Source: Rhodohalobacter barkolensis
Lineage (GTDB): Bacteria; Bacteroidota; Rhodothermia; Balneolales; Balneolaceae
Direction: 5' to 3'
DNA: 64,000 nucleotides
Assembly: GCF_002834295.1 (NCBI RefSeq)
Contig: NZ_PISP01000005.1
Location: 1 to 64,000, forward strand
This document shows, piece after piece, positions 42,966 to 50,881 of the stretch. Numbering within the stretch: position 1 is the first letter of the stretch; each line of letters starts with the position of its first letter. Under the pieces are notes generated by a model. That model was not told where the DNA came from. It was given only the letters and a program-made list of their open reading frames with translations, and did no database searches. Position numbers and translations under genes: made by a program.

Positions 42966-43481
42966 TTACCAATTGCTTACAGCATCATTGAACATATTAT
43001 TGGCAATCTGTTGAAGAGCGGCTTCTGCTGCTTCTATTTCACCGTCTACAGGGTTCTCCAATGTGTTGTAAGTAGCATTTCCGCTAAAGTTTTTATTCCA
43101 AAGAGGCTCGTCATCTTTTTGATACTGAAACGTTGCCCGTACAGTAATTTGAATTTCGTTGATATTGGCTTGTTCATCTCCACGTACACTAAAGGGGCGG
43201 TTCGTGTAATTTTGAATGGCACCTTCAACATACGCATCTGAAGACTCCTGATCATTCACGAGAGACAACCGACTCTGGTTCACAAAACGATTGATAAGAG
43301 CCTGGTTCAGGCGGTCGCTTAAATCGCCAAGACCACTTTGAGACTGGTCAGGAAAAAAAGGAATGTGAATGGTTCGTACATCGGAAGGGATGGACGTGCC
43401 GGTAAAACTATAACTGATACATCCTGCTATCGATAAACAGAGTGCCAGTATAATTAATAGATGCTTTTTACTGTAAATCAT
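42966..43481 (-). CDS. lptE: LptE-family LPS assembly lipoprotein
   Basis: A 171-residue lipoprotein. The ATG at 43481 gives a signal peptide with lipobox SIAGC (C21), followed by the family pattern YSFTGTSIPSDVRTIHIPFF and the helix-strand region RLNQALINRFVNQSRL. LptE plugs LptD and helps place LPS in the outer membrane. The frame extends 25 codons upstream but the later ATG is clearly right. The first 14 bases overlap the end of the sigma-54 regulator, a linkage typical for this phylum. Confidence 0.88.
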   Translation of the reverse strand: MIYSKKHLLIILALCLSIAGCISYSFTGTSIPSDVRTIHIPFFPDQSQSGLGDLSDRLNQALINRFVNQSRLSLVNDQESSDAYVEGAIQNYTNRPFSVRGDEQANINEIQITVRATFQYQKDDEPLWNKNFSGNATYNTLENPVDGEIEAAEAALQQIANNMFNDAVSNW

Positions 43482-44757
43482 ACTGATCCAACTTTCTGTA
43501 AAGAGTTCGTTCGCTGACACCAAGTGCATCAGAGGCTTTTCTTCGGTTACCTTCAAAGCGTTTTAATGCCTGTTCAATTAGAAATTTTTCAGCTTCTTCA
43601 ATGGAAGGAATCTCTTTGTCAGAGAAGAAATCCTGAATAATATCATGGTCTTCATCTTCCTGCGGTTCAGCCGGTGTTGAGATTCCCAGAGAGTCTTTAT
43701 CTGATGAATCGCGATAAATATGGCCTGATATGTCATTCGGATCAATATCGCGTGGCACGGCACTTGGCAGAGCTTTGAGCTCTTTATCTGAAAAAGAAGA
43801 GTAGACAAACTTTGCCAACATCTTTTTCAGATCGGAAATATCTCCTTGCATCTCTAATAATGCTCGATAGATGATCCCCATGTCTGTTCCGGAGCCGCTT
43901 TCAAAATCATCATCCTCATCGTCTGTAAACTCTTTTCGAGAGAGAACCGGAAGGTTATCCGTAGATCCGAGATGTTGTCGACCTTTCAGATATTTTTGAA
44001 GTCGATCTTTGTCAATAAACTGTGATTTCTCGAGTACAACGAGTTGCTCAGCTACATTACGAAGTTCGCGAATGTTACCGGGCCACCGGTAGGAGATGAG
44101 CAGATCCTTGGCTTCATCTGAGAATCCCTGGAAAACAGAATCATATTTTGATGAGAATTCAGTTACAAATTTTCTGAATATGGGTATGATATCGTCCTGG
44201 CGATCGCGAAGTGGTGGAAGTTTAATTTTTACGGTGTCGAGTCGGTAATAGAGATCTTCACGGAATTTGCCATCCTGTACAAGCTCCCATAGATCTTGAT
44301 TAGTAGCTGCAATTACGCGCACGTCTGCGGTAAACATTTTACTGGAGCCAACTCTAAAAAATTCGCCGCTTTCTAAAACACGAAGCAGTTTAACCTGAAT
44401 ATTTTTGGGTGTATCACCGATCTCATCCAAAAAAATGGTGCCGCCATCCGCTTTTTCAAAATAACCTTTACGCGCTTCGTGAGCACCGGTAAATGAGCCC
44501 TTTTCATGACCAAATAGTTCACTTTCAATAATGCCCTCAGGGATTGCACCGCAGTTTACGATCACCAAATTATTACGATTTCTTTTACTCAGTGAGTGAA
44601 TAGCACGTGCGGTAACATCTTTCCCAACTCCACTTTCACCCTGCAGTAAAACGGTAATGTCCGTTTTAGAAATCTGCATGATTTTGTCAATCACCTGCTT
44701 AATAGCCGTCGATTCACCGATAATTCCGTATCGCTCTTGTAATGCTTCTCTGTCCAT
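43468..44757 (-). CDS. Sigma-54-dependent transcriptional activator without receiver domain
   Basis: A 429-residue bacterial enhancer-binding protein. The AAA+ domain spans about 10-240, with Walker A GESGVGKDVTARA, the sigma-54 contact loop GSFTGAHE (variant of GAFTGA), Walker B GGTIFLDEIGDTP and the arginine-finger region EDLYYRLDTVKIKLPPLRDR. A variable linker (about 255-380) is acidic. The C-terminal Fis helix-turn-helix is RRKASDALGVSERTLYRKL. There is no N-terminal sensor or receiver domain, so activity must be set by partner binding or expression. It is the first gene of the operon that continues with lptE and the TPR gene. Confidence 0.93.
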   Translation of the reverse strand: MDREALQERYGIIGESTAIKQVIDKIMQISKTDITVLLQGESGVGKDVTARAIHSLSKRNRNNLVIVNCGAIPEGIIESELFGHEKGSFTGAHEARKGYFEKADGGTIFLDEIGDTPKNIQVKLLRVLESGEFFRVGSSKMFTADVRVIAATNQDLWELVQDGKFREDLYYRLDTVKIKLPPLRDRQDDIIPIFRKFVTEFSSKYDSVFQGFSDEAKDLLISYRWPGNIRELRNVAEQLVVLEKSQFIDKDRLQKYLKGRQHLGSTDNLPVLSRKEFTDDEDDDFESGSGTDMGIIYRALLEMQGDISDLKKMLAKFVYSSFSDKELKALPSAVPRDIDPNDISGHIYRDSSDKDSLGISTPAEPQEDEDHDIIQDFFSDKEIPSIEEAEKFLIEQALKRFEGNRRKASDALGVSERTLYRKLDQYDLQ

Positions 44758-44911
44758 AATATGTCTTTATTATTTAGACCTTAAAGGTAATAAAGTTCTG
44801 ATTCTTGGCATAGAGTGGATTTGATTATCAATGAAAGATAGTGGATAATTATAACTTGAAACTTTCGGAGCAGTTTAGAATTCAATTATACATATCGTTA
44901 TTTGTAAAAAT

Positions 44912-44940
44912 TTTGTAACCAATGATTAATTAAGTCGTCA
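44912..44940 (+). promoter_or_regulatory. Candidate ECF-type promoter of the sigma factor operon
   Basis: GTAAC at 44915-44919 is followed after 14 bp by GTCGTCA (44934-44940), like the AAC-type -35 and CGTC-type -10 elements of extracytoplasmic sigma factors. The same elements at the same spacing lie upstream of the DUF4382 gene (48465-48490). Position, 50 bases before the sigma ATG, fits autoregulation. Confidence 0.62.
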
Positions 44941-44989
44941 TACTTACATTAATAGCTTGATAGGGGCGACATTATGAGTAGTAATCTGA

Positions 44990-45556
44990 ATGAGTAGATC
45001 AGTTCAAAACGAAGATTTTCGACTTATTAATAGAATTCTGAATGGAAAACAGGATTTATATGAGATTTTAGTTGAAAGATACTCATCGATGGTTTTTCAT
45101 GTAGTACGCCGATTTGAGAAGGATGAGGATGAGGTAGAAGAGTTGGCTCAGGAAATTTTTGTTAAAGCCTATGAGAAACTTCATCAGTTCAATGAAAATT
45201 CGAAGTTCTCTACATGGCTTTATACGATTGCAATGAATCACTGTCGTGATTATGCGAAAAATGTAAGAAGAAAGAATCAACGATTCAGTGAAATGGAATC
45301 AGGATTTTTAGATTCCGACCTTATTGAGCAGCAAACTCCTCACTTGAAGATGGAGATCAAAGAGTGGGGGCGCCTGTTAAAACAATCTTTATTGAAACTA
45401 TCGGATGACTACTCGCAGCCGTTTTTGATGAAGTATCGAGACGGAATGAGTTACAAAACAATGTCTGAAGAGACCGGTGTATCGGAAAGTGCTTTAAAAG
45501 TGCGGGTGCACCGAGCTCGAAAAGAACTTAAATCACTACTGGAAAATAAGGTGTAA
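44990..45556 (+). CDS. ECF-type RNA polymerase sigma factor
   Basis: A 188-residue ECF sigma factor. Region 2 (about 20-95) includes VERYSSMVFHVVRRF, ELAQEIFVKAYEKLHQF and STWLYTIAMNHCRDYAKN; region 4 (about 128-185) has LLKLSDDYSQPFLMKYRDGMSYKTMSEETGVSESALKVRVHRARKEL. It directs RNA polymerase to ECF promoters. A tiny frame (44974-44997, seven residues) overlaps its start codon and could influence translation. Two bases separate its stop from the anti-sigma gene. The candidate autoregulated promoter lies just upstream. Confidence 0.94.
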   Translation: MSRSVQNEDFRLINRILNGKQDLYEILVERYSSMVFHVVRRFEKDEDEVEELAQEIFVKAYEKLHQFNENSKFSTWLYTIAMNHCRDYAKNVRRKNQRFSEMESGFLDSDLIEQQTPHLKMEIKEWGRLLKQSLLKLSDDYSQPFLMKYRDGMSYKTMSEETGVSESALKVRVHRARKELKSLLENKV

Positions 45557-45558
45557 TC

Positions 45559-46266
45559 ATGAGTAAAGAGAATTTAAAAAAGGATGAGCTATTTAGGCTT
45601 TTTCTGGATGGGGAACTGGATGATGAACAGGAGAGCCGGGCATTACATATGATTGCCGATGATCCTGAATTACGATCGATGCTCCATTTTGAGCGGACAC
45701 TAACTCAGTCATTTGCAAGTGACCCAAATCCGGAGTCATTTGCTGTCCCCGAAAATTTCAGCAGCTCGGTGATGAACAGGATTTCTTCTGAACATGAAAA
45801 TAAAAAAAGGCCTTCAAAAATAGGGATGTCACTGTTTGAGCCTAGAAAAGTAACCCTGCGTCCCATTTATGCTGCAGCCGCAGTCATTTTATTTACGTTC
45901 AGTTTTGGCTATCTCTTGCTGAATGAACAGGATCGGTCAGAGTCAGATATTGCGTCAATGGTTGGTGAGGATCAATCAGTACAGCTTGTATCTGAACAGG
46001 AATCCGAAGTATGGATTCGTTTTGTCTACTTTGACGAAAATGCAGAATCGATTGCAGTTGCCGGAGATTTTAGTGATTGGGATCCGGTAAATCTTTCGAG
46101 GGAGATCATTTATGATAAAATTGTCTGGACCGGTATGATTCCCGTGGTTAGAGGAGAGCATGACTATATGTTTGTAAAAGATGGAGAAGAGTGGCTTACA
46201 GATCCGTTAGCCGATGTACAGCGTGATGATGGATTTGGTAATAAAAATGCCGTGCTATTTATATGA
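45559..46266 (+). CDS. Single-pass anti-sigma factor with periplasmic CBM48/AMPK-like domain
   Basis: A 235-residue membrane protein. Residues 1-75 are cytoplasmic and look like an anti-sigma domain (DELFRLFLDGELDDEQESRA, DDPELRSML); one membrane helix lies at about 101-121; residues about 150-235 form a glycogen-binding-like beta domain (VWIRFVYFDENAESIAVAGD, FSDWDPVNL, RGEHDYMFVKDGEEWLTDP, DGFGNKNAVLFI). The FSDWDP and YMFVKDGEEW segments are the usual CBM48 signatures. The N-terminus should bind the sigma factor and the C-terminus may sense a glycan or the partner protein. It overlaps the next gene by four bases (ATGA), and that gene ends in the same kind of domain. The combination is unusual. 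Confidence 0.85.
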   Translation: MSKENLKKDELFRLFLDGELDDEQESRALHMIADDPELRSMLHFERTLTQSFASDPNPESFAVPENFSSSVMNRISSEHENKKRPSKIGMSLFEPRKVTLRPIYAAAAVILFTFSFGYLLLNEQDRSESDIASMVGEDQSVQLVSEQESEVWIRFVYFDENAESIAVAGDFSDWDPVNLSREIIYDKIVWTGMIPVVRGEHDYMFVKDGEEWLTDPLADVQRDDGFGNKNAVLFI

Positions 46267-47510
46267 TTAAATGGCTGCCGGCAGTAATATTATTAGCTTT
46301 AATTCCATTAACAGGCCTTAGCCAAAGCTTGGATAAAATACTTTTGCTTGATTCCAGAACGGGGTATACGACCAATTCATATCTAAACCCAATGCTTTCC
46401 GAATGGAACCGCGACATGAATACCGGTTACTCGACTTTAACTCCAATGGGTAACATTTTCCTGAGTAGTGGGAATTTTTCATCCGACCTGACAGCCGGAG
46501 CATCCTACAGCAAGTTTTTGGATGATAATGATGATTGGTCATCCCTTTTTATGTTATTGAACTCAAATTATCGGCTGAATGACAGATTCAGTGCCGGAAT
46601 TGAAACGGGAGGAAGTTACTATTCAACACTGGTTGATCGATCAATTCTTTGGATTCAACCTGTTCTTAGTTTCTCTCCTTCGCTGTTTACAAAAATCAAC
46701 CTGAAAGCCGGATCATCATTCAGAAAAGAGAGCGGTGATATCGACACGGAGTCATCAGGATTTGAACAGTTCAATAACTACAGTATTGAGTTTGAGACCT
46801 GGCCTACTTTCAAATGGCAGTTAAGAGCAGGTATATTTGGTGATCTGGATAATCCTGCAGAGAGCCTTGGAGCTCGCATCTCCTCAGATTTTAATATCTC
46901 AAGAAACTGGAATTTGAACCTTCGTACCGGATTGGAACGATACAGGTTTCAAATAGTGACAGATGGAGGCGGAGGAGGTGGTTTCCCTCCAGTTGGCGGG
47001 CCCGGAAACGAAGATACTAAAGAAGATGAAGCAGATATTTTGTTCAGAGGTTCGGCAGGAATTAAGTATCAGGTTAATCCAACTCTTGAAATGTCAGTAA
47101 ACACAGATTATTTAAATTATTTGTCCACGATCACAGAGGAATCTGTATCAGATATTCATGCTTCCATAGGTTTTCGAGTAACCTTATTCAATAGTAATCG
47201 TCATACTAGTGGAGCCAATGTTGAGCTGAGTCAAAATGGTTCTCAAACCATCTTGTTGAATTTAAAGTATAGCGGAGATGGGCAATTATATATAGTTGGC
47301 GATTTTAATGACTGGGAAAAGCCAGGTATTCCACTTTCTAAACAAAGAAAGTCACGATTTGTAGCTCAGCTTTCGTTGGAAGCCGGAGCGTATGAGTACA
47401 AGATTTTACTGATTGAAGATGGCGAAGAAAAGTGGCTTGAGCTATCTGAAGATACATTTACAGTTTCGGATGGTTTTGGTGGAGAAAACGGATTGATTTT
47501 TATTGATTAA
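46263..47510 (+). CDS. Outer-membrane barrel protein with C-terminal CBM48/AMPK-like domain
   Basis: A 415-residue exported protein. It has a signal peptide (1-20, IPLTGLSQS), a beta-rich region at about 25-320 with alternating strands such as SDLTAGASYSKFL and MSVNTDYLNYLST, a Gly-Pro-rich loop (GGGGGGFPPVGGPGNED) at about 237-253, and a terminal CBM48-like domain at about 325-415 (GQLYIVGDFNDWEKPG, LEAGAYEYKILLIEDGEEKWLE, SDGFGGENGLIFID). It shares the domain with the anti-sigma factor encoded just before, which suggests that both bind the same ligand or each other. I read residues 25-320 as an outer-membrane barrel by strand pattern only. Confidence 0.78.
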   Translation: MIKWLPAVILLALIPLTGLSQSLDKILLLDSRTGYTTNSYLNPMLSEWNRDMNTGYSTLTPMGNIFLSSGNFSSDLTAGASYSKFLDDNDDWSSLFMLLNSNYRLNDRFSAGIETGGSYYSTLVDRSILWIQPVLSFSPSLFTKINLKAGSSFRKESGDIDTESSGFEQFNNYSIEFETWPTFKWQLRAGIFGDLDNPAESLGARISSDFNISRNWNLNLRTGLERYRFQIVTDGGGGGGFPPVGGPGNEDTKEDEADILFRGSAGIKYQVNPTLEMSVNTDYLNYLSTITEESVSDIHASIGFRVTLFNSNRHTSGANVELSQNGSQTILLNLKYSGDGQLYIVGDFNDWEKPGIPLSKQRKSRFVAQLSLEAGAYEYKILLIEDGEEKWLELSEDTFTVSDGFGGENGLIFID

Positions 47511-47521
47511 GTAAGATAACT

Positions 47522-48409
47522 ATGAATAAAAGATACAGACATATCAGAAAAGGGGTCCTTTCTTTGGGGTTGGTACTTCTTCTACTGTTTCCTGTCAACA
47601 TATTTGCACAGGAAACATTATCAGGCTTATTGGAGCGGGCAACTGCATCCGGAATTGAGCAAGATAGAATTGCGGAAGTTCAAAGCCGTATAGAGTCACA
47701 CGGTTTGAGTGAACAGGAGTTTATGAAAATACTGCAGCCGGCCGTTGAAATGGCAGGGGATAACTTGCCGTATGAAATGATTTTTGAAAAAGTATTCGAA
47801 GGAATATCGAAAGGTGTTTCGGTTCAGCGGATGTCTCCCGTGTTGTCGTCTATTCGTGATAATGCTTCCAGGTCTGCACAATTGGTGGATCGATGGATGG
47901 AGCGCCCTGAAGTAGATCAGTTTATTCAGAAAGAGGAGGGGCGGTTATCCAAACCTCAATATAGAAATGAGATGGTCAAGGCAGGGTCTAAAGCGATGAT
48001 GCAAAATGTAAATGAGGATGTATTAACAGAAACTCTTAACAATGTTGCTGATGGCAATATGGAAAGAGTAAGGCCTTCCGGTTTACTGGCTGCAATCAAT
48101 ATTTTAAGTGACTTGCCTGATGGGGCAGCGGCAGCATCTGAAAATGCCAAGATTGTTTTAAAAGCGCTACAGAGCGGGTTCGAAGCGGGGGATATGCAAA
48201 AATTACCGGCAGCTATGAATATGGCTCAGCGCAGAAGTCAGCTTCCGGCGGCGGCCGTTGGCAAAGGTTTAATGCAGCAGTTAGAAAGAGGATTGCCAAG
48301 TGAAAGAATCTTACAAAATTTGTTTAACGGAGAGATTGGGGGTGGCCCACCGGGCAATGTACCCGGAGGTATAAGAAATGACAGGCCGGGAAGACCCGGA
48401 GGTAATTAA
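47522..48409 (+). CDS. Secreted helical protein of unknown function, last gene of the sigma operon
   Basis: A 295-residue exported protein with a signal peptide (1-29, FPVNIFAQ). The mature part is all-helical with Ala-, Met- and Gln-rich segments; the C-terminal 30 residues are a flexible Gly-Pro-Arg tail (GGGPPGNVPGG, RPGRPGGN). I do not recognise a family. It follows the barrel gene by 11 bases and precedes a strong terminator, so it is the end of the sigma/anti-sigma/OMP operon. A periplasmic partner or chaperone for the upstream proteins is plausible but unproven. Confidence 0.75.
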   Translation: MNKRYRHIRKGVLSLGLVLLLLFPVNIFAQETLSGLLERATASGIEQDRIAEVQSRIESHGLSEQEFMKILQPAVEMAGDNLPYEMIFEKVFEGISKGVSVQRMSPVLSSIRDNASRSAQLVDRWMERPEVDQFIQKEEGRLSKPQYRNEMVKAGSKAMMQNVNEDVLTETLNNVADGNMERVRPSGLLAAINILSDLPDGAAAASENAKIVLKALQSGFEAGDMQKLPAAMNMAQRRSQLPAAAVGKGLMQQLERGLPSERILQNLFNGEIGGGPPGNVPGGIRNDRPGRPGGN

Positions 48410-48411
48410 GT

Positions 48412-48446
48412 AAAAGGGCGTTTTAAGACGCCCTTTTTTGTTTTTA
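48412..48446 (+). terminator. Rho-independent terminator of the sigma operon
   Basis: AAAAGGGCGT (48412-48421) pairs with ACGCCCTTTT (48428-48437), with a 6-base loop and a long T-run. It is three bases after the last stop codon of the operon. Confidence 0.95.
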
Positions 48447-48461
48447 AAAATTCAAAAAAAA

Positions 48462-48490
48462 ATTGTAACGGATTGGTTCTTGACTCGTCA
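48462..48490 (+). promoter_or_regulatory. Candidate ECF-type promoter of the DUF4382 gene
   Basis: GTAAC at 48465-48469 is followed after exactly 14 bp by CTCGTCA (48484-48490), matching the candidate promoter of the sigma operon at 44915-44940. It lies 62 bases before the ATG. This predicts that the DUF4382 gene is driven by the sigma factor encoded 3.5 kb upstream. Confidence 0.62.
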
Positions 48491-48552
48491 CATGACTAAG
48501 TGAAAGATTTTTTCGATAAACAATCTTAATAATAAATCAATCAAATACAGAT

Positions 48553-49374
48553 ATGAAAAGTCTATCTAACATATTCAACAAAACATTAATGGCCGTTTTG
48601 GCTATAGGTATGTTTGCATTTGTGGGCTGTTCTACAGACAGTACTCCAGGAATGGGAACAATGGAAATCAAGCTTCATGACGCCCCTGCTGACTACGATG
48701 AAGTTAATGTCTTTATCGAACGAGTAGAAGTTAATAACTCAACGAACGAGGATGAAGGCTGGCAAGTGATCAGTGAACCCAGTGAGCAGTTCAATCTACT
48801 TGAACTGACTAATGGAGTTTTTGAAGTTATCGGTGAAGCTGAATTAGAAGAAGGACTCTATCCGCAAATTCGTCTGATCTTAAGCAGAGACAACAACAAT
48901 GTTGTTGTAGACGGTGAATCACACGATCTGTTTATACCAAGCGGTAGTCAAACCGGTGTGAAGTTGAACGTAAATGCAGAAATTGAGGAAGGTATTGTTT
49001 ACACACTCCTGCTCGATTTTGACGCTCTTCGATCTGTACACACTACGGGTCAATCACCAGCCATAGACTATATCCTCAAGCCGGTTATTCGCGCTTCTAA
49101 TGAAGCTCTTACCGGAAATATCGGAGGAAATGTAAGTCCAGCAGATGCCAGGGCAGCTGTATTTGCAATTGCCGGAGAAGATACGCTTTCATCAACATAT
49201 GCTGATGAAGAGTCCGGTGAATTTCTGTTGGTTGGACTTGAAGACGGATCTTATGACGTTTCTGTTGAACCGAGAGAAGACGGTTTTGGAAGCGAGTATC
49301 TCGAGAATGTTGAAGTTACGGTAGGTGAGACTACAGACCTGGAAACTATTGAGTTAACAGTAGAAGGTAACTAA
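48553..49374 (+). CDS. DUF4382 lipoprotein
   Basis: A 273-residue lipoprotein; the lipobox is FAFVGC with C26. The DUF4382 domain, about 35-180, begins MGTMEIKLHDAPADYDEVNVFIERVEV in the usual way (quoted here in parts: KLHDAPADYDEVN, ITLFE-like RVEV). A second beta-sandwich of SpaA/carboxypeptidase-regulatory type covers 190-270 (GEFLLVGLEDGSYDVSVEP). Such proteins are displayed on or near the outer membrane and are thought to bind or adhere; the function is not shown. It has its own promoter of the type used by the sigma operon and is followed by a strong terminator. Confidence 0.87.
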   Translation: MKSLSNIFNKTLMAVLAIGMFAFVGCSTDSTPGMGTMEIKLHDAPADYDEVNVFIERVEVNNSTNEDEGWQVISEPSEQFNLLELTNGVFEVIGEAELEEGLYPQIRLILSRDNNNVVVDGESHDLFIPSGSQTGVKLNVNAEIEEGIVYTLLLDFDALRSVHTTGQSPAIDYILKPVIRASNEALTGNIGGNVSPADARAAVFAIAGEDTLSSTYADEESGEFLLVGLEDGSYDVSVEPREDGFGSEYLENVEVTVGETTDLETIELTVEGN

Positions 49375-49464
49375 AGAGTAGACGGTTAAAGTAAGAGACC
49401 CGATTTGTAAGAATCAAAGCACTTGCAGTGTGCGAATTGGTTCGAGACAGATCAGAGAACACAA

Positions 49465-49497
49465 AAAAAAGCTCCGGTTGGTCCCGGAGCTTTTTTT
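49465..49497. terminator. Bidirectional terminator between the DUF4382 gene and miaB
   Basis: AAAAAAGCTCCGG (49465-49477) pairs with CCGGAGCTTTTTT (49484-49496) over a 6-base loop. The A-run and T-run flanking the stem allow termination in both directions, suitable for the convergent DUF4382 and miaB genes. Confidence 0.93.
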
Positions 49498-49519
49498 ATA
49501 TCAATATTTAAGTTGGTCG

Positions 49520-50881
49520 TCAGGCTGTAACTACAGTTTGATTATAAAACTCAGCAATTGAACTTTTACGTATTGGCTTTGCAATCAGGGTAGCGGAAGT
49601 GTAGTCGGTAACTTCAACCTCTACGTAATCACCTTTTTTGAAATTCTTTTTGTCGAACACAACCATTTTATTGGTGTCGGTTCGGCCTGAAAGCTGCTCA
49701 TCTGATTTCTTACTGGTTCCTTCAACCAATACCAGATGGCGTCGGGCCACTTCATCTTTATTATTTTTCTCCTGAATGGCCATTTGCTGTTTAATAATCT
49801 CTGTCAATCTTCTCTTCTTTATTTTTTCAGGCACATTGTCTTCATACTTACGTGCGGCAAGAGTTCTTTCACGTTCAGAATATGCAAACATGTATGCAAG
49901 GTCGTACTCTACAATTTTCATGAGTGACATGGTTGCTTCGTGCTCCTCTTCGGTCTCATCACAAAAACCTGCAATGATATCCGTTGATAGCGATACCCCG
50001 GGAATGATTTCCCGCATTCTGTCAATCAGTTTTAAGTACTGGTCGCGGGTGTAGGGCCGGCGCATTCTCTCCAGCATGGTGTCACTGCCTGCCTGTGCCG
50101 GTATGTGAATGTAGTTACAAAGATTCGGGCGTTCAGCAATTAAATGAAGCAGTGGCTCCGGAAAATCTTTTGGATGTGGAGATGAAAATCTGAACCGTAT
50201 TTCCGGATTTGCCTTGCTGACTTCATCCATCAATTTTGTGAAATCAATGTCTTCATATTGATAGGAATTTACATTCTGCCCAAGAACGGTGACCTCTTTA
50301 TATCCCTGATCATTTAGCTGGCTGATTTCATCCATTATACTGCTCAACGGACGACTTCGTTCGCGACCTCTTGTGAAGGGAACAACACAGAAAGCACACA
50401 TATTATCACATCCGCGCATAATTGAAACGAAAGCAGTGACGCCGTTGCCACTGGTTCGAACCGGAGTAATATCAGCATAGGTTTCTTCAAGTGACAGGAG
50501 CACATTAACGGCTTTGCGTCCGTCGTTAACTTCTTTAAGCAAATTTGGAATATCCCTGTATGCATCCGGTCCGACAACAATATCGACCAGCTGTTCTTTT
50601 TCGATGATATTCTCTTTGATGCGCTCGGCCATGCAGCCCAGAACACCAACTGTTAAGTCTTTCTTCTCTTTTTTAAGCGACCGAAACTCCTTGAGCCGAT
50701 TCCATACCCGTGTTTCTGCATTTTCACGGATAGAGCAAGTATTCACAAAAATAACATCTGCTTCTTCTGCAGAATGAACGGGACTCATTCCTTCATCCAT
50801 TAGAATAGAGTTGACTACTTCAGAGTCGGCCATATTCATCTGGCATCCGTAAGTCTCTATGTAAAATCGTTTATCACTCAT
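49520..50881 (-). CDS. miaB: tRNA-2-methylthio-N6-isopentenyladenosine synthase
   Basis: A 453-residue methylthiotransferase. The N-terminal domain holds Cys residues of the auxiliary cluster (ETYGCQMNMADSE, NTCSIRE, GVLGCMAE); the radical SAM cluster is CDNMCAFC, followed by VPFTRGRERSRP; a TRAM domain closes the C-terminus (GRTDTNKMVVFD, YVEVEVTDYTSATLI). It adds a methylthio group to i6A37 in tRNAs reading U-starting codons. The length and motif set identify MiaB rather than RimO or MtaB. Monocistronic. Confidence 0.95.
   Translation of the reverse strand: MSDKRFYIETYGCQMNMADSEVVNSILMDEGMSPVHSAEEADVIFVNTCSIRENAETRVWNRLKEFRSLKKEKKDLTVGVLGCMAERIKENIIEKEQLVDIVVGPDAYRDIPNLLKEVNDGRKAVNVLLSLEETYADITPVRTSGNGVTAFVSIMRGCDNMCAFCVVPFTRGRERSRPLSSIMDEISQLNDQGYKEVTVLGQNVNSYQYEDIDFTKLMDEVSKANPEIRFRFSSPHPKDFPEPLLHLIAERPNLCNYIHIPAQAGSDTMLERMRRPYTRDQYLKLIDRMREIIPGVSLSTDIIAGFCDETEEEHEATMSLMKIVEYDLAYMFAYSERERTLAARKYEDNVPEKIKKRRLTEIIKQQMAIQEKNNKDEVARRHLVLVEGTSKKSDEQLSGRTDTNKMVVFDKKNFKKGDYVEVEVTDYTSATLIAKPIRKSSIAEFYNQTVVTA

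Follow-up and report, generated by a model that had tools for sequence, protein, structure and literature searches.

A sigma/anti-sigma unit in which two proteins end in a glycogen-binding-type domain was analyzed in Rhodohalobacter barkolensis. The DNA used, called the window below, is a stretch of 64,000 nucleotides (assembly GCF_002834295.1, contig NZ_PISP01000005.1, positions 1 to 64,000). The unit encodes an extracytoplasmic function (ECF) sigma factor, a one-helix anti-sigma factor, an exported beta-rich protein (the third protein), a secreted helical protein and a DUF4382 protein. The anti-sigma factor and the third protein both carry a C-terminal CBM48 domain. It is proposed that the CBM48 domain of the anti-sigma factor, predicted to lie in the periplasm, responds to an alpha-glucan-like glycan, or to a partner that presents it, and releases a sigma factor that regulates its own operon; the chance of this proposal being correct is judged to be about even. 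The observations underneath it are the anatomy of the unit, the conserved gene order, the promoter elements, the homology of the two domains and the tryptophans conserved within them. The features are listed here.

44913..44940, + strand: ECF-type promoter element TTGTAAC-N16-CGTCA, exact match, about 76 bp before the sigma gene
44990..45556, + strand: ECF sigma factor gene (188 amino acids, sigma regions 2 and 4)
45559..46266, + strand: anti-sigma factor gene (235 amino acids; putative N-terminal anti-sigma domain at about 1-80, membrane helix at about 103-121, C-terminal CBM48/AMPK1_CBM at about 150-235)
46006..46263, + strand: CBM48 coding stretch in the anti-sigma gene (residues 150-235)
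46263..47510, + strand: third gene, exported beta-rich protein (415 amino acids; C-terminal CBM48 at about 330-415)
47177..47206, + strand: further promoter copy in the third gene, differing from the extended consensus at one position and 345 bp upstream of the helical-protein gene
47250..47507, + strand: CBM48 coding stretch in the third gene (residues 330-415)
47522..48409, + strand: helical-protein gene (295 amino acids, secreted, all-helical)
48412..48437, + strand: terminator-like hairpin downstream of the four-gene operon (stem of 11 pairs, 4-nt loop, T-rich tail)
48463..48490, + strand: second promoter element TTGTAAC-N16-CGTCA, exact match, before the DUF4382 gene
48553..49374, + strand: DUF4382 gene, fifth member of the unit (273 amino acids; lipoprotein by its N-terminus; CarboxypepD_reg-like C-terminus)

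Homology of the two CBM48 domains

The third protein matched AMPK1_CBM at residues 334-410 with 28.6 bits, above the Pfam cut-off of 26.8. The anti-sigma factor matched the same family at residues 158-232 (E=2.2e-5) with 25.0 bits, slightly below this cut-off. At E<=1e-3, the family was recognized in all 28 aligned anti-sigma sequences (best 2.9e-13) and in 23 of the 27 aligned third proteins. The anti-sigma alignment was made without L040 and L061, which are cut by contig ends, and the third-protein alignment without L119, whose third gene is seemingly split in two overlapping frames (L119:4956-6208). When the two domains were compared by hhalign, a probability of 98% and E=1.1e-14 were obtained over 88 columns. 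These data indicate that the CBM48 domains of the anti-sigma factor and the third protein are related beyond chance. Against the PDB, the anti-sigma profile reached AMPK beta at E~2e-7 and a pullulanase at 1.4e-9, and the third-protein profile reached AMPK beta at 5e-6. The fold assigned to the anti-sigma domain rests on sequence homology.

A preliminary description of this DNA, made from the letters alone, had placed a glycogen-binding-like domain at both C-termini, with common GDF(S/N)DW and DGFG(G/N) segments. The profile searches assign both domains to the CBM48/AMPK1_CBM family, and the segments GDFSDW/GDFNDW and DGFGN..VLFI/DGFGG..LIFI are present in the translations of the two proteins.

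In both proteins, conservation is highest in the CBM48 domain. In the anti-sigma factor, 25 of the 86 columns in residues 150-235 were conserved at >=90%, versus 6 of 80 in residues 1-80. The mean top-residue frequency was 0.69 in the CBM48 part versus 0.50 and 0.33 elsewhere, the lowest value belonging to residues 81-149 with the helix. For the third protein, the values were 0.58 in the CBM48 part versus 0.44 and 0.41.

Rat AMPK beta1 contacts beta-cyclodextrin through W100, K126, W133, L146 and T148, and mutation of these contacts markedly lowered glycogen binding (PMC2642990). The equivalent positions in the window are W174, M204, W212, F226 and N228 in the anti-sigma factor, and W351, K380, W391, F405 and G407 in the third protein. 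The positions of W100 and W133, the glucan-stacking pair of AMPK, are Trp in all 123 system domains, a set in which two loci are counted twice (L062/L187 and L063/L220). The position of L146 is aromatic in 122 of the 123, and Asn is kept in 121 at the position of N150, which we take to be another residue of the AMPK site. The K126 position of the third proteins is Lys in 22 and Arg in 5 of the 27 sequences. Binding of alpha-glucan by the CBM48 domains of the system is likely, judged by these residues.

In the domain tree, a branch with 100/100 support set apart the 27 CBM48 domains that come from third proteins of the window's class. Of the 26 anti-sigma domains of this class, 24 were grouped separately, and L127 and L128 stood apart. 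The tree was built from 94 columns without the L211 domain (57 amino acids) and 6 of the 10 stand-alone CBM48 sequences; 32 of its 121 inner branches are open and long branches were flagged. The tree speaks to these groupings of the CBM48 domains rather than to their deeper origin.

The proteins of the unit

The four genes of the operon are spaced by 2, -4 and 11 bp. These gaps, the open reading frames and the strands agree with the preliminary description, which had taken the unit to consist of four genes. The four genes stand; the full extent is five genes with the DUF4382 gene included, arranged as two transcription units in the R. barkolensis genome.

The sigma factor matched Pfam Sigma70_r2 with 67.5 bits (cut-off 24) and Sigma70_r4_2 with 52.1 bits (cut-off 25.7), and NCBIfam sigma70-ECF with 103 bits, above the cut-off. 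A match to region 3 was absent from the Pfam scan at E<=1, which fits the definition of an ECF factor and bears out the earlier assignment.

The anti-sigma gene adjoins the ECF gene with a 2-bp gap and encodes a membrane helix, as expected of class I anti-sigma factors by position. A single hydrophobic segment was found at about 103-121, ahead of the AMPK1_CBM match, so that the one-helix protein described earlier is recovered. Basic residues precede the helix and acidic residues come after it; therefore, by the charge rule, the C-terminus with CBM48 would lie outside, in the periplasm. At the N-terminus, NCBIfam NF052375 'antisigma' was matched at E=1.5e-6, below its cut-off, and no Pfam anti-sigma domain was found in the window protein or the other aligned sequences.

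The third protein, barrel-type in the preliminary description, is a candidate outer-membrane barrel on weak evidence. OMP_b-brl was matched by 2 of the 27 aligned sequences and BBP2_2 by 1 of the 27 (E<=1e-3). The AlphaFold2 model, built from 3 sequences, was poor (pLDDT, the predicted local distance difference test score, 42.2), and long strands are visible in this low-confidence model.

The helical protein has a hydrophobic, signal-peptide-like N-terminus and a Gly/Pro-rich tail, and its AlphaFold2 model is all-helical with a pLDDT of 82.5, in keeping with the secreted helical protein of the preliminary description. An invariant K-x2-E-G-x2-K motif (K90, E93, G94, K97) was found in the alignment of 28 members. 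No Pfam family exceeded its cut-off in the window protein, no family appeared in more than 2 of the 28 Pfam-scanned sequences, and Foldseek returned no match to the model at E<=0.001. Its profile matched a designed helical repeat in the PDB at E=0.0028, with two further matches near 0.7. The best VIA-align Z, 8.9, was likewise to designed helical repeats and is below the tool's telling level for helical repeats. The third protein, in a loop (46968-47010), and the helical protein, in its tail (48335-48405), both have a Gly/Pro-rich stretch (GGGG..PP.GG).

The DUF4382 protein matched Pfam DUF4382 with 114.6 bits. Among the open-access papers searched, one, on archaeal glycoproteins, names DUF4382.

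Conservation and distribution of the unit

Among R. barkolensis and 39 relatives, the anti-sigma factor was found near full-length or contig-cut in 9 of 40 genomes. In the loci of the 8 relatives, the anti-sigma, third, helical and DUF4382 proteins are kept in 8 of 8; sigma is seen in 7, and the eighth locus starts inside the anti-sigma gene. Across the phylum, the anti-sigma protein (E<=1e-12) was present in 21 of 394 genomes, which fall into a single class and represent 9 of 170 genera. The helical protein (E<=1e-3) was present in 23 of the 394, namely the same 21 and two with weak partial matches (E~5e-4). The two thresholds in this comparison are not the same, and some of the genomes searched had also contributed to the helical profile.

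The third and helical proteins were present in all 19 further loci (L060, L061, L112-L128), and sigma in 18, L061 starting inside the anti-sigma gene. DUF4382 was found in 18 of the 19, with partly weak matches down to 3e-6 in the most distant ones, and its gene lies upstream of sigma in 4 of the 6 class-level loci. The gene order is conserved in relatives; a lack of conserved co-occurrence, named in the preliminary description as counter-evidence, was not found. Nor did an unrelated fold of both C-terminal domains, the other counter-evidence named there, come to light, with the anti-sigma domain judged by sequence homology. In the following, near relatives are the 22 loci (the window, L033-L040, L060, L061, L112-L122) that share genus, family or order with R. 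barkolensis or are titled Balneolales, and L123-L128 are related at class level only. In three of the class-level loci (L123:1566-2231, L125:8319-8984, L126:1594-2262), the operon is followed about 1.5 kb further on by a second sigma-like gene.

In other phyla, the anti-sigma profile (E<=1e-8) matched 119 of the 200 genomes searched from Gemmatimonadota, to which L062 (Candidatus Palauibacter) belongs; there were up to six matches per genome, some of which need not be anti-sigma factors. It also matched 38 of 50 genomes in the phylum of L063, a metagenome-assembled genome (MAG) titled Candidatus Atribacteria; part of these matches are other CBM48 proteins, and 5 of the 38 rest solely on frames of 646-727 amino acids. 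The 30 best loci of each search, 60 in total, were then compared, with 1.5 kb flanks searched for a second CBM48 gene. Sigma was found in 55 of the 60, upstream and on the same strand in 54 of these 55. A helical-protein match was found in 56 of the 60, in each case downstream and on the same strand; the threshold was E<=0.01 on a small set, with many values of 1e-4 to 1e-13, and L063's own helical member was included in the profile. These data show that the arrangement of sigma, CBM48-bearing anti-sigma factor and helical protein recurs in at least two phyla.

DUF4382 was matched in 3 of the 60 loci. A second CBM48-tailed protein after the anti-sigma factor was found in 9 of the 30 Gemmatimonadota loci and in 0 of the 30 of the other phylum. 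The Gemmatimonadota second CBM48 profile aligned with the window third protein at 98% over 342 columns, of which the well-scored part is CBM48. The preliminary description had suggested that the periplasmic domain of the anti-sigma factor may sense either a glycan or the outer-membrane partner. The third protein holds its place beside the anti-sigma factor in the window's class; in the other phyla it is the helical protein that is near-constant instead.

Promoter elements and regulation

The exact motif TTGTAAC-N16-CGTCA occurs in the window at 44913 and 48463 only; with 2 mismatches allowed, the window count is no higher than chance. The hairpin at 48412-48437 separates the four-gene operon from the second promoter element. 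Terminator-like sites in 44600-49700 numbered 8, versus a shuffled mean of 3.3.

Among the near relatives, the motif lies 44-110 bp upstream of sigma in 19 of 20 loci with a sigma gene (367 bp in the other), and 63-106 bp upstream of DUF4382 in 20 of the 22 loci (about 510 bp in the remaining two). It also lies upstream of a helical-protein gene in 6 of the 22. In these 22 loci, GTAAC-N16-CGTC gave 53 hits versus 1 for the reversed pattern and a block-shuffle mean of 1.5. At class level, the motif stands no more than about 220 bp before sigma or DUF4382 in 4 of 6 loci, counted without a control, and was not seen in L127 and L128. Since the motif is conserved before both sigma and DUF4382, the unit is very probably autoregulated. 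The copy at 47177..47206 is a possible internal promoter. Four loci (L034, L060, L061, L121) have repeated helical-protein and/or DUF4382 genes beside the operon, and those of L034 and L121 have their own motif copies.

Genome-wide in R. barkolensis, the exact core motif was found at 4 sites versus 6 for the control, and two of the 4 are at this locus. Of the other two, one is antisense inside a long frame. The second faces away from the nearest frame of at least 80 amino acids; another frame is about 1 kb ahead. Allowing up to 2 mismatches, the extended motif gave 65 matches in 12 genomes versus 68 for the reversed control. It was above control in 4 of the 12 (14 versus 8 in G392), and it misses the real site at 48463. 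A wider genome regulon was considered and set aside: the motif is not enriched genome-wide, and no further targets are claimed. The regulon looks local, with room left for a small wider one.

Proposed mechanism and alternative explanations

By analogy with its family, the one-helix anti-sigma factor would tether its ECF sigma factor to the inner membrane. The periplasmic CBM48 would act as the receiver, binding an alpha-glucan-like glycan directly or as presented by a partner. A change in occupancy may expose the anti-sigma factor to regulated proteolysis, and sigma would be freed. Free sigma would then transcribe its own operon from 44913 and the DUF4382 gene from 48463. The CBM48 of the third protein would capture this same ligand, hold it or position it, closing a feedback loop, and the further products would be the helical protein with its K-x2-EG-x2-K motif and the DUF4382 lipoprotein.

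Several points weigh against this proposal. The match of the anti-sigma N-terminus to RsiW (5wuq) is weak (E=0.009, profile positions 7-79). At the ligand site, the K126 position of the 28 anti-sigma sequences is Met in 22 and Gln in 4, and otherwise Ile or Ala. The T148 position is not kept in either protein, being Asn in 21 of the 28 anti-sigma sequences and Gly in 23 or Ser in 4 of the third proteins. Stand-alone CBM48 sequences, which carry Asp at the N150 position, share the tryptophans (W100 in all 3 aligned and W133 in all 4, with one suspect sequence), and the Trp pair may therefore reflect the fold as well as binding. The conservation measured is biased toward CBM48, because distant sequences were found via CBM48 patterns. 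None of the five genes encodes a glucan-handling enzyme. GH13 genes were found in 40 of the 41 genomes tested, 21 with the system and 20 without, so GH13 presence does not track the system. The distribution is patchy, both among the 40 close genomes and among the 394 of the phylum. In the other phyla, a relaxed form of the promoter motif stands before sigma in 3 of 54 loci, none of them convincing.

Sensing of a protein partner is the chief rival, because the helical protein is a near-constant companion. Here the anti-sigma CBM48 would be a protein-protein module that senses either the helical protein or the third protein's CBM48, and the unit would register envelope stress much as RseA does, without any glycan; we regard this as possible and on balance doubtful. 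The loss of K126 and T148 from the anti-sigma domain speaks for it, as does the helical protein itself, which accompanies the anti-sigma factor in 56 of the 60 other-phyla loci, many by weak matches, and in the same 21 of 394 genomes of the phylum, plus two weak matches. The invariant tryptophans of the ligand site in all 123 domains speak against it. The second CBM48-tailed gene is present in only 9 of the 60 other-phyla loci, so paired CBM48 domains cannot be the general rule. A broader form of the glycan proposal would make the widespread CBM48 anti-sigma family a set of transmembrane glucan receptors wired to ECF sigma factors, with the anti-sigma CBM48 and the outer-membrane CBM48 tail reading the same glycan and the helical protein as an obligate third component. 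This broader form is put forward tentatively and is rather unlikely to hold in full.

The CBM48 domains might also be inert spacers or fold scaffolds, with the signal read elsewhere, for example in the juxtamembrane segment. GlgB-type N-terminal domains suggest that the family can be mainly structural. The pattern of conservation points the other way, with CBM48 the most conserved part and residues 81-149 the least (0.69 versus 0.33), and this explanation is considered quite improbable. An answer to osmotic or solute stress, with the glycan or solute tied to glucosylglycerate or similar compatible solutes, has even less in its favor and is judged very improbable. In 6 of the 28 genomes with searched loci, a glucosyl-3-phosphoglycerate synthase/HAD/GH13 cluster does lie within about 10 kb of the operon. 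The 64-kb window lacks it, as do the fetched loci, with limited flanks, of the other 21 genomes; the cluster's side and orientation vary, and genomes without the system have GH13 matches comparable in range and length.

Relation to known systems

No description of a CBM48 anti-sigma system was found among the open-access papers searched, and the preliminary description likewise knew of none. RsgI factors carry CBM3-type domains and sense polysaccharide outside the cell, and SigI is not known as an ECF factor. RsgI/SigI of Clostridium thermocellum is nearest in logic to the present unit: signals from substrates outside reach a sigma factor through an anti-sigma factor in the membrane (PMC12203970). 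The present unit differs by its CBM48 and by an exported partner with the same kind of domain. RsgI_N had no Pfam match in the window anti-sigma factor (E<=1) or in the 28 aligned sequences (E<=1e-3); since the anti-sigma N-terminus had no match to any Pfam model, this test is a weak one.

The glycogen-binding domain of AMPK beta is a regulatory glycogen sensor (PMC2642990). The CBM48 domains described here belong to the same family and have the matching Trp pair. AMPK is a cytosolic, eukaryotic kinase, whereas the present system regulates a sigma factor, and K126 and T148 are not kept in its anti-sigma domain.

Class I factors of the RsiW type share with the window protein a gene placed after sigma, one helix and a C-terminus predicted to lie outside; at its N-terminus the window protein has a weak match to RsiW. 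The window protein has no Cys and no Hx3Cx2C zinc motif, a motif that is not required of the class, and its putative sensor is CBM48. Domains fused to class I anti-sigma factors are usually conserved within a group (PMC7406223). The unit resembles FecR-type signalling in that its sigma/anti-sigma genes come with one for an exported protein of probable outer-membrane location. Unlike FecR/TonB systems, the third protein has 415 amino acids and gave no TonB-receptor, plug or FecR match in Pfam scans. Unlike RseA/RseB, no RseA_N or MucB/RseB match was found in the proteins of the unit by the same scans.

Other observations

A divergent gene directly upstream of the unit (43468-44757) encodes a sigma-54-type activator with AAA+ and Fis-type helix-turn-helix domains, in which a receiver domain was not found. 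It had no match in the loci of the 8 relatives. The glucosyl-3-phosphoglycerate synthase/HAD/GH13 cluster, with a sucrose-phosphorylase-like GH13 member, is located at L112:7771-11000 and in L247-L251. ParA/MinD-type ATPases (AAA_31) fused to a C-terminal AMPK1_CBM were seen at L065:4759-6252, L069:3101-4186 and L085:5203-6318, in Phycisphaerales, Nitrospirae and Candidatus Auribacter MAGs. Proteins with four AMPK1_CBM stretches were seen at L093:4741-6222 and L101:681-2135, in Rufibacter and a Chitinophagaceae MAG.

Significance

Many ECF systems have no known signal. Here, the receiver domain belongs to a family with a well-studied ligand class, and the signal is therefore directly testable. 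The unit includes a helical family for which no Pfam assignment was found, and in the window's class it pairs the sensor CBM48 with a domain of the same type on an exported partner. If the broader form of the glycan proposal is true, this system would be an envelope counterpart of AMPK glycogen sensing.

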